The notes under the pieces: model-generated
Databases searched by the model: none
Seen by the model: only the letters and a program-made list of their open reading frames with translations
What the model was told of the DNA's origin: nothing
Made by a program: the position numbers and the translations under genes
Assembly: GCF_041361345.1 (NCBI RefSeq)
Contig: NZ_JBGKAD010000001.1
Coordinates: 248,001-312,000 of the forward strand
Direction of reading: 5' to 3'
Origin: Halobaculum sp. MBLA0147
Lineage (GTDB): Archaea > Halobacteriota > Halobacteria > Halobacteriales > Haloferacaceae
Length of the DNA stretch: 64,000 nt
Shown: positions 46,880-56,731 of the stretch, piece after piece
Position numbering within the stretch: the first letter of the stretch is position 1
Layout: the number at the start of each line of letters is the position of its first letter

Positions 46880-47512
46880 GTTCCAGATGAACCCGTTGTG
46901 GGGTTGAAGCCGGCGCGACACCGGCCCGGAGCACGATCAGATCGGTGTTCCAGATGAACCCGTTGTGGGGTTGAAGCCGGTGGGACGACGGCTCGCGCTC
47001 GCGTGCGACTTCGGTTCCAGATGAACCCGTTGTGGGGTTGAAGCGCGCGTCTCTTGCACTGCGTCGAGTCGTGTCACGAGGTTCCAGATGAACCCGTTGT
47101 GGGGTTGAAGCCGTCTCGACGGACGCGATCCGACTCCGACGAGTCGTTCCAGATGAACCCGTTGTGGGGTTGAAGCTCGGAGCCGTAGTTGTCGTCGAAC
47201 TGGGGGAAGACGGTTCCAGATGAACCCGTTGTGGGGTTGAAGCCTGGGCCTCGAGGCGATCGTCGTCGGAGGCCTCGGTCTGTTCCAGATGAACCCGTTG
47301 TGGGGTTGAAGCAGTCGATCCGTCCTTGCCCAGGATACGAACACGGGTTCCAGATGAACCCGTTGTGGGGTTGAAGCGGCTGGTACTCACCGATCCCGAC
47401 CGGGGTGTCCGCGAGTTCCAGATGAACCCGTTGTGGGGTTGAAGCCCTCGACCGTGGCCGACGCGCCACTGTCGGGTGCTCGTTCCAGATGAACCCGTTG
47501 TGGGGTTGAAGC
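46880..47512 (+). CRISPR. CRISPR array, 10 repeats of 31 nt and 9 spacers
   Basis: Repeats start at 46880, 46947, 47014, 47081, 47146, 47213, 47282, 47347, 47415 and 47482. Each begins GTTCCAGATGAACCCG and ends TTGTGGGGTTGAAGC, and all ten read identically, including the last. Spacers are 36, 36, 36, 34, 36, 38, 34, 37 and 36 nt and are all different. The repeat resembles haloarchaeal subtype I-B repeats but is one base longer (CCCGTTGTGGGG where relatives have CCCTTGTGGGG). The GTTGAAGC end sets transcription left to right. No cas gene lies in the window, so processing must rely on genes elsewhere. Confidence 0.97.
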
Positions 47513-47530: not shown

Positions 47531-47556
47531 GTGCGGAAACCCATATTCCGCACCCC
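47531..47556. repeat. Partial third copy of the island motif, forming a hairpin after the CRISPR array
   Basis: GTGCGGAA (47531-47538) pairs with TTCCGCAC (47546-47553) over 7 nt, 18 bases after the last repeat. CCCATATTCCGCACCCC (47540-47556) matches 17 bp of the 28-bp inverted repeat that flanks the ATPase module. Confidence 0.8.
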
Positions 47557-47819
47557 CTCATTCCGGTTCGATCAATTTCCCCTCTGGCGATTAGTCGATT
47601 TATTATACGAAATTAAACAGTATCAGTACGGGCGTGACGAACGGAACCCTCAACAGCGTTAAAACAGTCACAAAGAGCAACAAAACGCCCTCTTACGCCG
47701 GTTTTAGATGGATTGAATGAGATGGTGACTGAGGACGAAGCAACTGCTGAGCCGGCTATACACTTTATGACAAATAACCAATTAGTGTGCAAAACCGCAA
47801 GAGGGGAAAATGACGCCAT

Positions 47820-47847
47820 CAAGATCAAGGGGTGCGGAATATGGGGT
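47820..47847 (+). repeat. Left 28-bp inverted repeat of the ATPase module
   Basis: Begins CAAGATCAAGGGG and ends GGAATATGGGGT. It is the exact reverse complement of 50839-50866. GGGGTGCGG is also repeated directly here (47829 and 47843). Confidence 0.95.
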
Positions 47848-48028
47848 GCGGGTAGGACTACCCGCTCTATCTCGGAGAGACTGGTGGGAAGACGCGCATC
47901 CGATACGACAACGACCACGAATGAATGCATCAAGAAGCACGAGAGCTACACCCGGGACAACATTGAGCAGATCGAGTTTCTCGGGATGCTCACGTTGTAC
48001 GACGGTTCCGTCGGGAGACTAAGGAAAC

Positions 48029-48035
48029 ATTTAAT
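48029..48035 (+). promoter_or_regulatory. Promoter of the two-gene ATPase module
   Basis: AAGGAAAC (BRE-like) followed by ATTTAAT, centred about 27 nt before a start site next to the ATG at 48062. This fits a leaderless transcript and fixes the start of the small gene. Confidence 0.65.
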
Positions 48036-48061
48036 TCGCTCCTATGCACCTATCTAGCTCG

Positions 48062-48253
48062 ATGGTCGACCCTGGTGCGGATTCAGAGGAAATCAAGGAA
48101 GAAATTCTCGACACGTTCGAGTCAGAAATGGCGAAGAGCGATGTACCTGCCGAGATCTCGGCCCGTATCGAAGCAGAACTACGGGACGACGACCACCCTA
48201 GCGACCTCACGGGAACACTTCCGACGGAGGTGACGGCCGATGGTGACGATTGA
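48062..48253 (+). CDS. Small acidic protein encoded with the SMC-like ATPase
   Basis: A 63-aa protein, strongly acidic, predicted mostly helical (EEIKEEILDTFESEMAKSD ... ISARIEAELRDDD) with a disordered tail. No family recognised. Its last 14 bases overlap the ATPase start at 48240, so the two are translationally coupled. The arrangement fits a partner, regulator or antitoxin of the ATPase, which is inference only. Confidence 0.7.
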   Translation: MVDPGADSEEIKEEILDTFESEMAKSDVPAEISARIEAELRDDDHPSDLTGTLPTEVTADGDD

Positions 48254-50747
48254 GAGCCTCCGCGTCCAGAACTTTCGTGGGGTAACTGGAGAGCACGAAC
48301 TAGAGACAGATGGTGAGAACGTTGTAATCGTGGGACCGAACGGATCCGGAAAGAGTTCGTTGCTGGAGGCGGCGGATTACCTGATCACGGGTACCATCTC
48401 CGACCTTCGAGGAGAGGGTATGGGTGTCGTCCCCCGCGACGAAGTAATCCCTAACGTCAGATCCGACGGGGAGTGCGTCGTAGAAGCGTCGCTGGAGCTA
48501 GACGACGGGTCCACGCAAGAGTTCCGGCGGAGTTTCGAAGAGCGGGACACGGATCCACCCGAAGACGAATTACCAACCTCTGTCGAGGAGGCGATTGATA
48601 CGGCAGAACAGGGACAACACCTGCTCACGAGGGACGACCTGCTGGACCTGATCTTGGCCCAACCACAGTCTCGTCGGGAAGCTTTCGTGGAACTTCTCGA
48701 TTTACCGGACATCGATGAGCGACGACTGGCTCTCCAGCGCACTCGAAAGAAACTGGACAAACGGGTCGAAAACGAAACGACATCCCGCGAGAACGTCGCC
48801 GAGCGACTCCGTGAGATTGCCGGAGTCGACACGCCTCACGGAGATCTCCTCGAAAGCGCTGTGTTGGAAGCAGTAAACGACCTCAGGGAGGAATTCGGCG
48901 CGGAGCCCATCGACGAGATAACCCCCGAAGGTGTGAGAAAGGGAATCAAGTCACCGAGTGAACTCGTCTCCGCGGAGGCACTTCAGCGGGAACCACCGCG
49001 CCAAGCACTCGAAGAATTCGCCAGTTGGATTGAGAGCGTCCACGAGAACCTCCCCGAAACCATCAAGAACTTTCGTAGTAAGCTATCCGAGTTCCACCGA
49101 TCCGAGTGGGGCGGGGTCGACGCAAAGCAGCTAGAACTGCTCGAACTCGGCGAGTCAGTCGTAGAACCGGATGACGACGTGTGTCCGCTCTGTGATCGTC
49201 CCTGGCACGAGGATACCCCGTTGCTGGAGGACATCAGAGACCGACGGGAAAGACTGGCGCACCTCCAACACCTGAAGGAGTCCATCGAGGGACGGCGTGA
49301 TGACCTTCGGAGTACGCTGAACGAGGGGCGGGATCTCACGGAGTACCTTTCGAGGGAACTGGAGGAGTCAGTGTACCCGCAAGTAGAGGCGATTCAACGA
49401 CTTCAGGAGGTGATCGACGAGACGCTAAGCATCTTCTCCAACGACGCCCTCGTTCGTGGCGATTTGACGCCAGAAGAATTGCCTATCGTGGACGATGAAC
49501 CCGGAGAGGAGATTCTGACGAAGCAAATCAAAGAAGCTCTTCGTGCGTCCAAGGAGCTACAGCGCCGTGCCAGCGAGGTCGACGACCTGAGCGAAACAGA
49601 AGCGAAGTACGAACGATTACAGAGCGTCGCGGATCAGTGGGCCGAGTATCAAGAGCGGCGGGCCACGGTCGAACGGCTTGAGTCGCTACTCGAACAGGTC
49701 AAGATCGCGGAGAGCAACTTCACCGACGCATGGGAGGAAGTCGTCGGCGACATTTACGAGGACATCTCGTCGCGGGTCGGAACGTACTACGAACGAATTC
49801 ACGGTGACGAAGTGGGGGCCGCTACCCGGTTCGATGTGACTGATACCGGTGTGAAATTGAAAAAAGAATTCTACGACGAAGGCGAGTTCCCGCCACAGGG
49901 AATCCACAGTGAGGGCCACCTCGACACACTCGGTCTGTGTCTCCACCTCGCACTGACCGACTACCTCCAGCAGGGCAACGAATCGATCATCCTGATGGAC
50001 GACGTAGTGATGTCCGTCGATCAAGATCACCGACGCGAGATAGCTCGCCTCATCGCCGAGGAATTCGCAGAGGAGTACCAGGTCATCATCACGACACACG
50101 ACGAGTTGTGGGCCCAACAGCTGAAATCAGAGGGGGCACTCGACGGCGGCGATCAAGTCTGGCTTCAGGAGTGGTCACTGGACGCTGGCGTAACGGAGAG
50201 TCGATACCGAATCGATGTCGGTGATCAGTGGGACGAAGTTGAGGCAGCGATGTCCGACGACGACATACAACGTGCAGCCCACGAACTCCGATATGCGACG
50301 GAACGAATGCTTCAGCAGACTTGTACGTCGCTCGGAGCACACATCGAGTACAAACCTGGTGCCGAGTATACGGTTTCTGATTTCAAGGATGCCGTCTGCC
50401 GTCGGTTAGATACACTCACCGGCAAGGCGAGAGACAACCTCCATTCTCACGACGATGACGATAGAGACGACTTTGAAGCTGCGGGGGAACTAGATGACAA
50501 ATACGGGAAATTGCTACACGACGTTGGAGAAAAGTTGGACAGAGTAAACCGTCGGGTGCACTGGACACCAGGGAAGTGGCTAACTCTCGGATCGAAGGAA
50601 TTCGAAGAGGTCTACGAGACGCACAAGGCTGCCTACGATCTCTTGTACTGCGATGAATGTGGGTCGTCGATCCGGTACGAAGAGATGGGAGGCTACCACG
50701 AACTCCGATGCAACTGTCGAGAACACTACGACATCACGTGGAGCTAG
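48240..50747 (+). CDS. SMC/Rad50-like ATPase with zinc hook and HEPN-like C-terminal region
   Basis: An 835-aa protein. Walker A is GPNGSGKS (32-39). A long coiled-coil region has a hook motif CPLC (C315, C318). The ABC-signature-like segment IHSEGHLDTLGLCLHLAL and Walker B IILMDD (D587, D588) are followed by the switch TTHD. Residues about 670-760 are helical with R684-x3-E688 and R731-D-N-L-H-S-H737, resembling the RxxxE and Rx4-6H pattern of HEPN ribonucleases, as in PrrC/RloC anticodon nucleases. A terminal ribbon has C804/C807 and C824/C826. RloC also combines a Rad50-like zinc-hook ATPase with such a nuclease. The family call is tentative. Confidence 0.85.
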   Translation: MVTIESLRVQNFRGVTGEHELETDGENVVIVGPNGSGKSSLLEAADYLITGTISDLRGEGMGVVPRDEVIPNVRSDGECVVEASLELDDGSTQEFRRSFEERDTDPPEDELPTSVEEAIDTAEQGQHLLTRDDLLDLILAQPQSRREAFVELLDLPDIDERRLALQRTRKKLDKRVENETTSRENVAERLREIAGVDTPHGDLLESAVLEAVNDLREEFGAEPIDEITPEGVRKGIKSPSELVSAEALQREPPRQALEEFASWIESVHENLPETIKNFRSKLSEFHRSEWGGVDAKQLELLELGESVVEPDDDVCPLCDRPWHEDTPLLEDIRDRRERLAHLQHLKESIEGRRDDLRSTLNEGRDLTEYLSRELEESVYPQVEAIQRLQEVIDETLSIFSNDALVRGDLTPEELPIVDDEPGEEILTKQIKEALRASKELQRRASEVDDLSETEAKYERLQSVADQWAEYQERRATVERLESLLEQVKIAESNFTDAWEEVVGDIYEDISSRVGTYYERIHGDEVGAATRFDVTDTGVKLKKEFYDEGEFPPQGIHSEGHLDTLGLCLHLALTDYLQQGNESIILMDDVVMSVDQDHRREIARLIAEEFAEEYQVIITTHDELWAQQLKSEGALDGGDQVWLQEWSLDAGVTESRYRIDVGDQWDEVEAAMSDDDIQRAAHELRYATERMLQQTCTSLGAHIEYKPGAEYTVSDFKDAVCRRLDTLTGKARDNLHSHDDDDRDDFEAAGELDDKYGKLLHDVGEKLDRVNRRVHWTPGKWLTLGSKEFEEVYETHKAAYDLLYCDECGSSIRYEEMGGYHELRCNCREHYDITWS

Positions 50748-50838
50748 AGCCGGTGGTAACTCATCGTTGGAGGCTACTCCTTGACGGTGGGGCCAACTTC
50801 CCACGTCTAACGGTCTAATTCATCAGTGACCATCCTCG

Positions 50839-50866
50839 ACCCCATATTCCGCACCCCTTGATCTTG
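50839..50866 (-). repeat. Right 28-bp inverted repeat of the ATPase module
   Basis: Exact reverse complement of 47820-47847. It lies 91 bases past the ATPase stop, so the pair encloses 3,047 bp containing only the promoter and the two genes. Confidence 0.95.
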
Positions 50867-50952
50867 CTCCGTTGAACGCCGACGCCGTCTGTGGATCGTA
50901 TCGCTGATTTCACGGGATTTGGACGCCGTCTGGCGATATGGGACGTCTCTAG

Positions 50953-51753
50953 ACCCTCGCACAGACCTTTCACGAATTCGCCACGAACCATGTTGAACAA
51001 CCAGACGTACCCGCTGTCGCCGACGGCGACAACGAGTACGCCAAGTCCACCAAAATCGCGCTCCTTCTGCTCAAAGAGGAGATCAGCAAGCCGCTTCGGA
51101 GGCTCGAAGACTATCTCAACGAGATGCCGGGAATTCTCGGTGTGTTTGATCTTGACTCATCGCCGGATTACTCATCTTTCAGCGTCTGGGACGATGAATT
51201 CCCGATGAAAGAACTGCGCCGCCTTCTCCGCGCCTCCGCGGAGCAGGCGGGGCTCTCAGGCACCGCGTCGATCGACGCCAGCGGCTTTCAGCGTGACCAA
51301 GCCAGCTCACACTACCGGAATCGGGTCGGTTACTCGTTCAACGCGATGAAAACGACGCTGCTTGTTGACACGGATTCTCTTGCTATCATGGACGCTCATT
51401 TCACGACGAAGAAAGCCTATGACGGCCATATCGGGCTGCAGGTCTTTCGGCGGAACGCCGAAGACCTGCAAGCGTTGCTGGCCGACAAAATGTACTCGTG
51501 GAGTAATCTCCGTGAAGCTTGCCGTGACAGGTCTACACGGCCAGTGATCAAACACTGCGAGCAAAACGCACTCAAGAAATCCCACAACGCCAGAATTGAC
51601 GATGATGTCTACAACCAGCGGTTAATGAGTGAGACCGTGTTTGCGATGCTGAAAGAGGACGGCGACGAGATCCGCTCCCGGAGCTGGCACGGCCAGTTCC
51701 GGGAGCTTACACGGAAGTGTATCGTCCATAACCTCGAGCAGGCGGCGAGTTAG
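50953..51753 (+). pseudogene. IS5-family transposase, 5' end decayed
   Basis: The frame gives a DDE-type transposase from TLAQTFHEFATNHVEQ to the intact C-terminus HGQFRELTRKCIVHNLEQAAS, with TASIDASGFQRDQASSHYRNR and DAHFTTKKAYDGHIG as catalytic-domain segments. An in-frame TAG at 50950 and further stops upstream leave only an internal ATG at 51124, so the N-terminus is lost or frameshifted. I could not find convincing terminal inverted repeats. Confidence 0.75.
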
Positions 51754-51769
51754 AGCTCGCCGCCTGCTC
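51736..51769 (+). terminator. Strong hairpin across the transposase stop codon
   Basis: GAGCAGGCGGCGAG (51736-51749) and CTCGCCGCCTGCTC (51756-51769) are perfect 14-bp complements with a 6-nt loop that contains the TAG stop. It could terminate transcription or block read-through into the IS. Confidence 0.6.
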
Positions 51770-52099
51770 CCCTTCTCCGAATGTATCCGAGAGAGGCATC
51801 GCCATCGTCCACCTCATGCTTTATCTGGTATCTTGTGAAACTGATGCTTTGGTAGCCGCACAATTCTGCTCGAATCGAATCGTCCGATCTGAGAATCCAC
51901 AGCTAAAGCGCTGCTACCAGTAGAAGATCGAATATCAAAAATCCGATGTTGCCGCCGTCTTGCGTTCAACACGGCATGATCAAACGGTCGGTATCGGTTA
52001 ATTCGACCACACTTCAGTTGACGGGTAGTGAAATAGCCGGCGGTCTATCACACACTCCTTCTACCTGGGCGTTTATTTGTCAGATGTTAAGATAGACGA
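51770..52099. other. A/T-rich intergenic stretch with promoter for the next gene
   Basis: No gene seen. GTTTATTTG at 52071-52079 is a TATA box about 27 nt before the ATG at 52100. The rest is low-GC and may hold the unseen end of the IS. Confidence 0.55.
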
Positions 52100-53380
52100 A
52101 TGCCAGATACAGACACGTCACAGACCGACTCGTGTTCGTACGACGACTGTAACCGGGACGTTTCTGACGGAGGCTACTGCTACTGGCATCGAGAAGATAA
52201 TAAGCAGCCACTAAGTGATGATTCACCCGTCGATAGACTTCCACGTGATCTTACTGCCGCGCATCTCTGAAACACTGACCTCTCAGACGCGGATTTCTCC
52301 AGTTCCAACCTCTCCGACGCAGATCTCTTCGGTGCCGACCTTGCCGGTGCCAACCTCACCGACGCAGATCTCTTCGGTGCCGACCTTGCCGGTGCCAACC
52401 TCACCGACGCAGACCTCGTCAGTGCCGACCTCTCAAACGCGAACCTCCATGGTGCCGACCTCGCCGGTGCCAACCTCTCCGACGCAGATCTCTTCGGTGC
52501 CGACCTCTCCGACGCGGAACTCTCCGGTGCCGACCTCCCAAACACCAACCTTCACGATGCCGACCTCTCCGACACACACCTCTTTGCTGCTGAACTCTCC
52601 ACCGCGGACCTCTCTAGCGCGGACTTCTCCGACGCAAATCTTCTTTCTGCCGACCTCTCCGACGCAAGCCTCGTCGGTGCCGACCTCTCAAACGCGACCC
52701 TCCAGCATGCCGACCTTTCCGACGCAGACCTTGTCAGTGCCGACCTCTCCGAAACAAACCTCATCCGTGCCGACCTAACAAATGCTGACCTCCGCGGTAC
52801 GAGATTTTTCCGCGTATCTCTCTCGCGTGCCACGACGATCACTGAACACCGGGATCGGGCCCTTCCAGAAGAAGTGGATGACACAAACACCGGGTCACTC
52901 ATTTTAGACTGGGTCCGTCCCACATACGACCCGACCGTGTATGACGAAATTGGTCGGATAGAACACGAACTCCGCCGGGCGTACAGCAATAATGGACTCA
53001 CAGGACAGGCGCGGACCGCTCGCGTCCGAGAGCGAAAAGCCCGGCGACGAGAGGCGTTCGCTGAGGGGGGAGCACGAGGGAAAATCGCATGGCTCTGGTC
53101 GATTCTGGCGCAGGTGTTCACCGGCTACGGGATACAGCTTCGCTGGATTCTCGCTATGATGATCCTGCTGTATACTGGCTCGGCGGTCGTTTACTCGACG
53201 GTCGGCGGAATGGCCCCTGTCGAGAGTCTCTACTATAGTATCGTGACGTTCACCACCTCACCACCGGAGCCCGCACCGACCAGCCTACCAATGCGAGCCG
53301 TCGCCGGATTCGAAACGTTCGCCGGCACCGCGGCGATTGTGTTCCTCGGCTATGTCCTCGGCACCCGTGAGCAGGTGTGA
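52100..53380 (+). pseudogene. Pentapeptide-repeat protein with ion-channel domain, split by an in-frame TGA
   Basis: One 427-codon frame. It starts MPDTDTSQTDS, then a C12/C17/C27/H30 zinc finger (CSYDDCNRD ... YCYWH), then a TGA at 52268-52270. It continues without another stop through about thirty A(D/N)LxxA pentapeptides (about 60-230), a cytosolic helical linker and a two-helix ion-channel domain with pore-like VTFTTSPPEPAPTS. Similar haloarchaeal proteins carry the same three parts. The TGA kills it unless it is a sequencing error; haloarchaea do not read TGA as Sec to my knowledge. GTG at 52874 could express only the channel part. Confidence 0.85.
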
Positions 53381-53552: not shown

Positions 53553-53627
53553 TGGGTTGGGGCGGATTTGAACCGCCGGCCTCCTCCATGTCAAGGAGGT
53601 GTCATAACCGGGCTAGACTACCAACCC
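53553..53627 (-). tRNA. tRNA-Val (anticodon GAC)
   Basis: Acceptor GGGTTGG pairs with CCAACCC. The anticodon stem CCTCC/GGAGG encloses TTGACAT with anticodon GAC. The T arm is GGCGGTTCAAATCCGCC, and the discriminator is A. Its 3' end faces the low-GC island, the usual geometry for tRNA-targeting integration. No attachment-site copy was found at the other island end. Confidence 0.92.
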
Positions 53628-55096: not shown

Positions 55097-56731
55097 ATGG
55101 ACGACTGGGAACGACGGACGGTGCAGTACGTCGGGTTCGTCGTGGGGGTCGTCGTCGTGTTCTCGCTGGTGTACGACGCCGGGATGTCCGCCTTCGAGGG
55201 GCGACCGATCCCGTTCTTGCGGGCCGTCCGCGTCGTCGTCGAGACGTTCACGACGACCGGGTACGGGTCGGACGCCCCGTGGTCGACCGACGCGATGCGA
55301 CTGTTGGTCATCGGGATGGACGTGACGGGTGTCGTGCTCATCTTCCTCGCACTCCCGGTGTTGGTGTTCCCGGTACTCGAGGAGGCACTCTCGACGACGG
55401 TCCCGACGGCGGTCGACGACGACCTCTCGGACCACGTCGTGATCTGTACGCACAACGCCCGCGCCGCGACGCTGATCTCGGAGCTGAACTCGTGGGACCA
55501 GCCGTACGTGATCGTCGAACCGGATCGCGAGACCGCGACGGAGTTGTACGAGGACGGCCACCGCGTCATCCACCAGGAGGTCGTCAGCGTCGACGGGCTG
55601 GAACGCGCCAACCTCGCCGACGCGCGGGCCGTCGTCGCAGACATCTCCGACACCGTCGACACGAGTATCGTGTTGACCGCCAAGGAGATCGACGAGGACG
55701 TGCCGGTCGTGAGCGTCGTCGAGGAGCCGGACAGCGCGCGGTACCACGAACTGGCCGGCGCGGACGTGGTGTTGTCGCCACGACCACTGCTCGGGGAGAG
55801 TCTCGCCCGGAAGGTGACCACCGGCGTCTCGACGGATCTGGGCGAGGCGGTAGAACTCGGCGAGGACTTCGACATCGTGGAACTCCCGGTCTCGCGTGGC
55901 AGCGACCTCGTCGGCTCGACGCTCGCCGAGAGTGGGATCCGCGAACGGACGGGGGTCAACGTGATCGGGGCGTGGTTCCGGGGCGACTTCCAGAGTCCGC
56001 CACCGCCGAACGCCCGACTCGACGGCTCGACCGTCCTGTTGGTCACCGGTCGACCGGACCAACTGGAGGAACTCAGACAGGTGACCTCCTCGGACGTGCG
56101 CCGGTTCACGTCCGGCGAGACGGTGATCGTCGGCTACGGCGAGGTCGGCAGCCGGATCGGCGAGGCGCTGGAGGCCGCGGACATCGAACACACCGTCATC
56201 GACGTGGAGGACAAACCCGGCGTGGACGTGGTCGGGGACGCGACGGACCCGGAGGTGCTGGAGGCGGCAGGTGTCCACGGCGCTCGCTCGGTCGTCCTGG
56301 CGCTCCCCGACGACACGCTCGCCGAGTTCGTCGCGTTGATCGTTCGCGACCACACCCCCGACACGGAGATCGTCGCCCGGGTCGAACAGCCCGAGGCGAT
56401 GGGGAAGATGTACCGCGCCGGTGCCGACTACGTCCTCGCGTTGGCCTCCGTCACCGGTCGCATGACCGCCTCGGCGGTGTTGGACGACGAGGACGTACTC
56501 TCGCCGGACACACAGGTCGACGTGATCCGGACCGAGGCGCCCGGCCTCGTCGGCCGGACGCTGGGTGACGCCGACGTGCGCTCGCGGACCGGGTGTACCG
56601 TCGTCGCGGTCGAACGGAACGGCGACGTCCTCACCGACGTGGGTCCGACGTTCCGGGTCGAGGCCGGCGACAGACTGGTGATCGCCGGCACCGACGAGGG
56701 GACGAACCGCTTCCAAGAGATCCTCGGGTGA
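55097..56731 (+). CDS. Two-helix K+ channel with TrkA-N/TrkA-C (RCK) domains
   Basis: A 544-aa protein. Two transmembrane helices bracket the selectivity filter TTTGYGS (52-58). Two Rossmann RCK domains follow (VVICTHNARAATLISEL near 117 and VIVGYGEVGSRIGEAL near 345), each with a TrkA-C part (GSTLAESGIRERTGVNVIGAW; GRTLGDADVRSRTGCTVVAVE). It is expected to gate K+ flux by ligand binding, important for a salt-in halophile. ATG at 55097. Confidence 0.93.
   Translation: MDDWERRTVQYVGFVVGVVVVFSLVYDAGMSAFEGRPIPFLRAVRVVVETFTTTGYGSDAPWSTDAMRLLVIGMDVTGVVLIFLALPVLVFPVLEEALSTTVPTAVDDDLSDHVVICTHNARAATLISELNSWDQPYVIVEPDRETATELYEDGHRVIHQEVVSVDGLERANLADARAVVADISDTVDTSIVLTAKEIDEDVPVVSVVEEPDSARYHELAGADVVLSPRPLLGESLARKVTTGVSTDLGEAVELGEDFDIVELPVSRGSDLVGSTLAESGIRERTGVNVIGAWFRGDFQSPPPPNARLDGSTVLLVTGRPDQLEELRQVTSSDVRRFTSGETVIVGYGEVGSRIGEALEAADIEHTVIDVEDKPGVDVVGDATDPEVLEAAGVHGARSVVLALPDDTLAEFVALIVRDHTPDTEIVARVEQPEAMGKMYRAGADYVLALASVTGRMTASAVLDDEDVLSPDTQVDVIRTEAPGLVGRTLGDADVRSRTGCTVVAVERNGDVLTDVGPTFRVEAGDRLVIAGTDEGTNRFQEILG

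Follow-up and report, generated by a model that had tools for sequence, protein, structure and literature searches.

Organization of the locus

The window, a stretch of 64,000 nucleotides from Halobaculum sp. MBLA0147, contains two overlapping genes that are flanked by inverted sequence arms. The first gene (48062-48253, plus strand) codes for a small acidic protein of 63 amino acids, which is kept upstream of the ATPase in archaea as well as in bacteria. The second gene (48240-50747, plus strand) codes for a zinc-hook SMC/Rad50-like ATPase of 835 amino acids, whose core resembles LmuB while its C-terminal domain is RloC-like. An earlier note on this DNA had given an overlap of 14 nt for the two reading frames and distances of 242 nt and 119 nt to the arms, and all of these values were found to be correct. 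A putative TATA-like box (TTTAAT, 48030-48035, plus strand), proposed from a reading of the sequence only, is situated 27 nt before the ATG of the small gene.

The region has a GC content of 55-57%, compared to about 69-70% in its surroundings. To the left, it is adjoined by a CRISPR array (46880-47512, plus strand) composed of 10 identical 31-nt repeats and spacers of 34-38 nt. The description of the locus as an A/T-rich island next to a CRISPR array thus holds. Two more chromosomal CRISPR arrays with near-identical repeats were detected (G000:C1:1936569-1937202 and 1999044-1999676). On the right side of the locus, an IS5-family element is adjoined by a gene for a pentapeptide-repeat protein with an ion-channel-like C-terminus (52100-53380). 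Its reading frame is interrupted by one in-frame TAG near the start and may represent a pseudogene. A tRNA-Val gene (gac, minus strand, 53553-53627) lies close to where the low-GC island ends on the right, and the boundary of the island at this position might be tRNA-linked. A TrkA-like gene at 55097 is the only match at the DNA level to the genus members G124, G345 and G436 and for this reason, no empty site could be read within the genus.

The arms are ends of an IS1634-type element

The arms at 47820-47847 and 50839-50866 are perfect reverse complements of 28 nt, as had been claimed. They share a 17-nt core, CCCATATTCCGCACCCC, of which the window harbors three perfect copies, starting at 47540 (plus strand), 47829 (minus strand) and 50841 (plus strand), while only 0.1 matches with up to three mismatches are expected in a shuffled window. 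Even if two mismatches are allowed, no further copy exists in the whole 4.29-Mb host genome. The third copy (47540-47556), which lies outside the arms, pairs with the left arm and thereby delimits an element of 306 bp. This element (47540-47845, plus strand), hereafter MITE A, is a complete non-autonomous IS1634-type element with inverted CCCATATTCCGCACCCC ends. The left arm (minus strand) is its inner, right end, the tip of which (47845) faces the genes. From the tenth CRISPR repeat to the start of MITE A there are only 27 nt, compared to 34-38 nt in the other spacers.

The right arm is the remnant of a second, inverted copy (MITE B). Since the IS5-family element begins at 50865, only 24 nt of this arm (50841-50864, plus strand), the right end of MITE B, are shared by descent, while the first TG of IS5 and the outer AC match by chance. 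Past IS5, matches to the remainder of MITE B did not exceed chance level. The earlier statement that the module is bounded exactly by the arms has therefore to be abandoned in view of the third core at 47540, the 24 nt common by descent and the IS5 element directly outside. It is correct that there is no transposase between the arms; the transposase gene of IS5 lies directly outside the right one.

To trace the element, 391 haloarchaeal genomes were searched for the core, followed by a further scan of GTDB contigs. Besides the host, two of the 391 genomes contain it. In one of them (G110), two cores are 289 nt apart, as are those at 47540 and 47829, and form a 306-bp element that is 83% identical to MITE A and has TTGAAA at both outer edges. 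It is inserted between other genes and the ATPase is absent. The second genome (G102) possesses a diverged copy with 60% identity. The GTDB scan additionally revealed the core in Haloarcula LUM.49, Halovenus salina and Halonotius pteroides. MITE A shares 81-83% identity with the copies of G110 and Haloarcula LUM.49, and the differing surroundings in G110, G102 and Haloarcula LUM.49 indicate that the elements occupy unrelated sites. In Halonotius pteroides and Halovenus salina (L067 3193-5149 and L060 507-2691), the same tips enclose a gene for an IS1634-family transposase (NF033559, E about 1e-80 and 3e-77, respectively). These common tips identify the segment 47540-47845 as an IS1634-derived MITE, and about 56 nt of it match the terminus of the Halonotius element at 82% identity. 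No target duplication was seen around the ends of the L067 copy. A transposase similar to that of L067 was not found in the host genome by a search that was run without positive control, and the MITE gave no match among the PLSDB plasmids. These comparisons show that the arms derive from an IS1634-family transposon of haloarchaea, of which they form the terminal inverted repeats.

The earlier note had considered that the arms might instead be recognition sites bound by the encoded ATPase, and had suggested to examine whether arms and genes co-occur. Apart from the position of the arms around the genes, nothing points to such a function, and arms and gene pair turned out to occur apart in both directions. 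The core is missing at 20 out of 20 loci containing relatives of the pair, where the best matches show three to six mismatches in 17 positions, and the arm is present without the pair in G110, G102, Haloarcula LUM.49, Halovenus salina and Halonotius pteroides. Moreover, the very same sequence makes up the ends of transposons that encode a transposase. A role as ATPase binding site is for these reasons extremely improbable.

The other proposal, a mobile element that lacks a transposase, has these arms as its ends and was moved in trans, agrees with the data as far as the nature of the ends is concerned. That they are the two ends of a gene cassette has to be rejected in view of their orientation. 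The tip CCCATA is outermost in every stand-alone copy, but at 47845 and 50841 the tips are directed towards the genes, opposite to those of the autonomous IS1634 copies and stand-alone MITEs. The genes therefore lie outside both elements, and the only way to move them would have been as cargo of a composite that used the outer ends. The left outer end is the one at 47540, the right outer end has been lost.

Distribution and neighborhood of the gene pair

Relatives of the ATPase are patchily distributed. They were detected in 16 of the 391 haloarchaeal genomes (host included), belonging to 14 genera; three of them are 54-55% identical to the protein of the window, the others 27-35%. Further relatives are encoded by plasmids of Rhizobium, Pseudohalocynthiibacter, Hymenobacter and Fibrella. 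The pair thus extends over haloarchaea, Alphaproteobacteria and Bacteroidota, where it is not accompanied by the arms. Each of the 14 complete haloarchaeal loci has a small open reading frame immediately ahead of the ATPase gene, and so does every bacterial locus examined; in most cases this frame overlaps the start of the ATPase gene. Searches of genome and viral contigs with a single protein as query did not yield relatives; with an alignment as query, two useful viral loci were obtained.

In three haloarchaea (G029, G283 and G079), the pair is located exactly between the BREX genes pglX and pglZ. In G283, pglZ is followed by brxL, while a DUF499/HmaC gene was identified as neighbor in G319. 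Among the bacterial loci, AbiE and an Abi-family gene adjoin the pair in Rhizobium, patatin-like and ThiF genes in Fibrella. Next to the pair of the window, no open reading frame for PglX or PglZ was seen. Unlike BREX accessory genes, the pair stands alone in the window, and the same holds for most relatives. The searched passages of a 2026 BREX survey (PMC12839542) do not name such a pair. Earlier work had already noticed HEPN/RloC proteins within Pgl operons (PMC3710099), and the association of RloC-like proteins with such operons is therefore not new. The suggestion that the pair serves defense is supported by these neighboring genes and by the RloC-like features of the ATPase.

The ATPase and its C-terminal domain

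The relatives of the ATPase have conserved a Walker A motif, the CPLC zinc hook, a SEGH signature-like motif, Walker B (LLDD) and the H-loop. The zinc hook (residues 315-318; 49182-49193, plus strand) is invariant in all 15 aligned archaeal sequences. A structure model of the full-length protein reached a pLDDT of 45.8 only and was left unused.

The C-terminal domain (50157-50744, plus strand) is predicted to be a HEPN-like helical bundle. It contains the motif R684-x3-E688 ... N770-x3-H774 as well as the cysteines C804, C807, C824 and C826. In an alignment of residues 640-835 from 12 proteins, one of them bacterial, the arginine, glutamate, histidine and the four cysteines are invariant and the asparagine nearly so. 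The divergent relative L077 has kept R, E, N and H. In the anticodon nuclease RloC, the active site Arg-x3-Glu-x36-52-His has been established by mutation (PMC2610378), and the tails of RloC and PrrC are HEPN domains (PMC3710099). RloC-type AAA_13 proteins in bacteria of the Paenibacillus lactis order also possess R-x3-E and N-x3-(S)H. When the profile of the whole family was compared to these proteins, a match with Prob 94 and E 1.2e-7 was obtained, the alignment running from the zinc hook into the aligned R-x3-E, while the C-terminal tails alone reached E 0.09 against the RloC profile. A model of the C-terminus computed from three sequences (pLDDT 66.5) consists of helices and a hairpin at its end, and its best fold match in the PDB is 2q00, listed as a PaREP1 HEPN (E 0.068). 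Pfam searches with 12 C-termini did not give a coherent family, and the C-terminal profile retrieved no PDB sequence above chance level. AAA_13 proteins were absent from 145 haloarchaeal genomes. Each of the supporting lines is weak or moderate, but together they favor a C-terminal domain that acts as an RloC-like RNase. What needs explaining under this assumption are three relatives (L032, L033 and L037) of about 650 amino acids which have kept the ATPase and the small partner but are devoid of the C-terminal domain. No obvious effector gene was seen adjoining these three.

Relationship to RloC and Lamassu

Like RloC, the protein has an ABC ATPase that is interrupted by a coiled coil, a CxxC zinc hook and the C-terminal R-x3-E...N-x3-H. 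The two are also similar in size, and both occur in the company of restriction or Pgl genes (PMC2610378, PMC3710099). What separates the two is the distance between Glu and His, which amounts to 85 residues in the protein of the window compared to 36-52 in RloC, the C-terminal zinc ribbon and the conserved small partner encoded upstream. The match to AAA_13, the Pfam family of PrrC and RloC, scored 16.6 bits (E 0.0033) against a cut-off of 36. Since this value is below the cut-off and the spacing differs, the protein was not filed as RloC, though we have moderate confidence that it works in a similar way.

The best match in the libraries searched was the PADLOC model of LmuB (PDLC03859; residues 2-622, E 2.5e-32), which raises the question whether the pair is a Lamassu-type module with an LmuB sensor and an LmuC-like small protein, in which the effector LmuA is missing, is provided in trans or has given way to the fused C-terminal domain. 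The core of the ATPase matches the LmuB model over its full length, a small protein encoded directly before LmuB corresponds to the Lamassu gene order (PMC10586767), and the three relatives of 650 amino acids have the size of LmuB. On the other hand, an LmuA gene does not adjoin the pair of the window, as nothing was found between the MITE and the small open reading frame, and the relatives have no consistent gene upstream of the small one. In addition, the residue following the first aspartate of Walker B is an aspartate in 15 of 15 sequences and not the glutamine reported for LmuB, and most members carry a C-terminal domain that is absent from LmuB as described. A Lamassu-type module is hence unlikely, and the pair was not filed as Lamassu because LmuA is absent and the reported Walker B substitution of LmuB was not found.

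The likeliest function is defense by a triggered RNase, resembling an antiviral suicide switch, the RNase activity, the trigger and the task of the small protein being presumed. The zinc-hook ABC ATPase would dimerize and sense a signal of infection on DNA, such as ends, replication intermediates or failing restriction. An ATP-driven change would then free the C-terminal, RloC-like HEPN-type RNase domain with its zinc ribbon, which may halt translation by cutting tRNA or another RNA. The small acidic protein, encoded in an overlapping frame just ahead, might keep the ATPase in check or couple it to a sensor. In the limited collection of literature searched, no description of the family together with its small partner was found.

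Probable composite transposition of the gene pair

A precedent for cargo between two MITEs is provided by Haloarcula LUM.49 (L062 2502-7708). There, two MITEs that are 94% identical to each other flank a gene for a type IIG restriction-methylase of 1181 amino acids. GTGGAC is present to the left of the first and to the right of the second MITE, whereas the inner junctions lack a duplication. The Haloarcula MITEs have the same orientation, in contrast to the inverted ones of the window. By analogy, the most plausible reading of the locus is that of a damaged composite like the one in Haloarcula LUM.49. Its element of 306 bp, the perfect inverted ends of 17 nt common to IS1634 transposase elements and, in G110 and around the Haloarcula composite, a target duplication of 6 bp agree with IS1634-family MITEs and composites. 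Different from IS1634-family composites, the cargo is a defense gene bracketed by two MITEs instead of full insertion sequences, and one end has been destroyed. The MITE pair would have carried the intervening segment as a composite, mobilized in trans by an IS1634 transposase, and landed in the tenth spacer of the CRISPR array. Later, insertion of IS5 and a deletion would have removed the far end. As the outer right end and its duplication have been lost, the window itself cannot demonstrate transposition.

Alternatively, the gene pair may have been there already, and the two MITE ends inserted to its left and right in separate events without ever moving it. The missing right outer end, which leaves no duplication joining the two ends, is compatible with this scenario, as is the presence of the pair in many genomes devoid of the MITEs. 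However, a lone MITE A should be surrounded by a 6-bp duplication of its own, as is the case in G110, but its edges are CGGAAA and GTGCGG. Two insertions around one 3-kb module are also hard to expect from an element without any other copy in 4.29 Mb, and the Haloarcula composite sets a precedent for MITE-bracketed cargo. Independent arrival is therefore rather unlikely. By contrast, it is reasonably likely that two things are superposed at this locus, a composite MITE transposition and, as its cargo, a two-gene antiviral module of the RloC-like RNase type, where the transposition itself, the RNase activity, its trigger and the role of the small protein are again presumed.

A more far-reaching view can be put forward tentatively. 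The pair may be an unnamed, widespread two-gene immune system, in which an RloC-like zinc-hook ATPase-RNase is checked by a dedicated partner of 60-80 amino acids from an overlapping frame, which serves as a plug-in effector for BREX and other systems and which in haloarchaea is moved by pairs of IS1634 MITEs capable of capturing defense genes. If this is true, it would constitute a two-gene branch of the RloC/PrrC translation-stopping defense, including a partner protein without counterpart in known RloC, spanning haloarchaea to Bacteroidota and having no model of its own in the defense library used. There would then be two haloarchaeal cases in which MITEs rather than full insertion sequences bracket a defense gene, and this could be a simple MITE-borne route for such genes into defense islands and CRISPR arrays.

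The IS5-family element (50865-51976, plus strand) that cut the right arm is 97.9% identical to a copy on the megaplasmid of Halorubrum ezzemoulense Fb21. The ends of the Fb21 copy are fixed by an 8-bp target duplication, AGTGACGA, and its boundaries were transferred to the window. Here the 8-bp duplication is missing, and one side of IS5 has therefore presumably been rearranged after insertion. The transposase frame (50938-51753) contains a TAG a few codons past the position corresponding to the start in Fb21, where the gene is intact, and to judge from this codon the copy of the window may be inactive.
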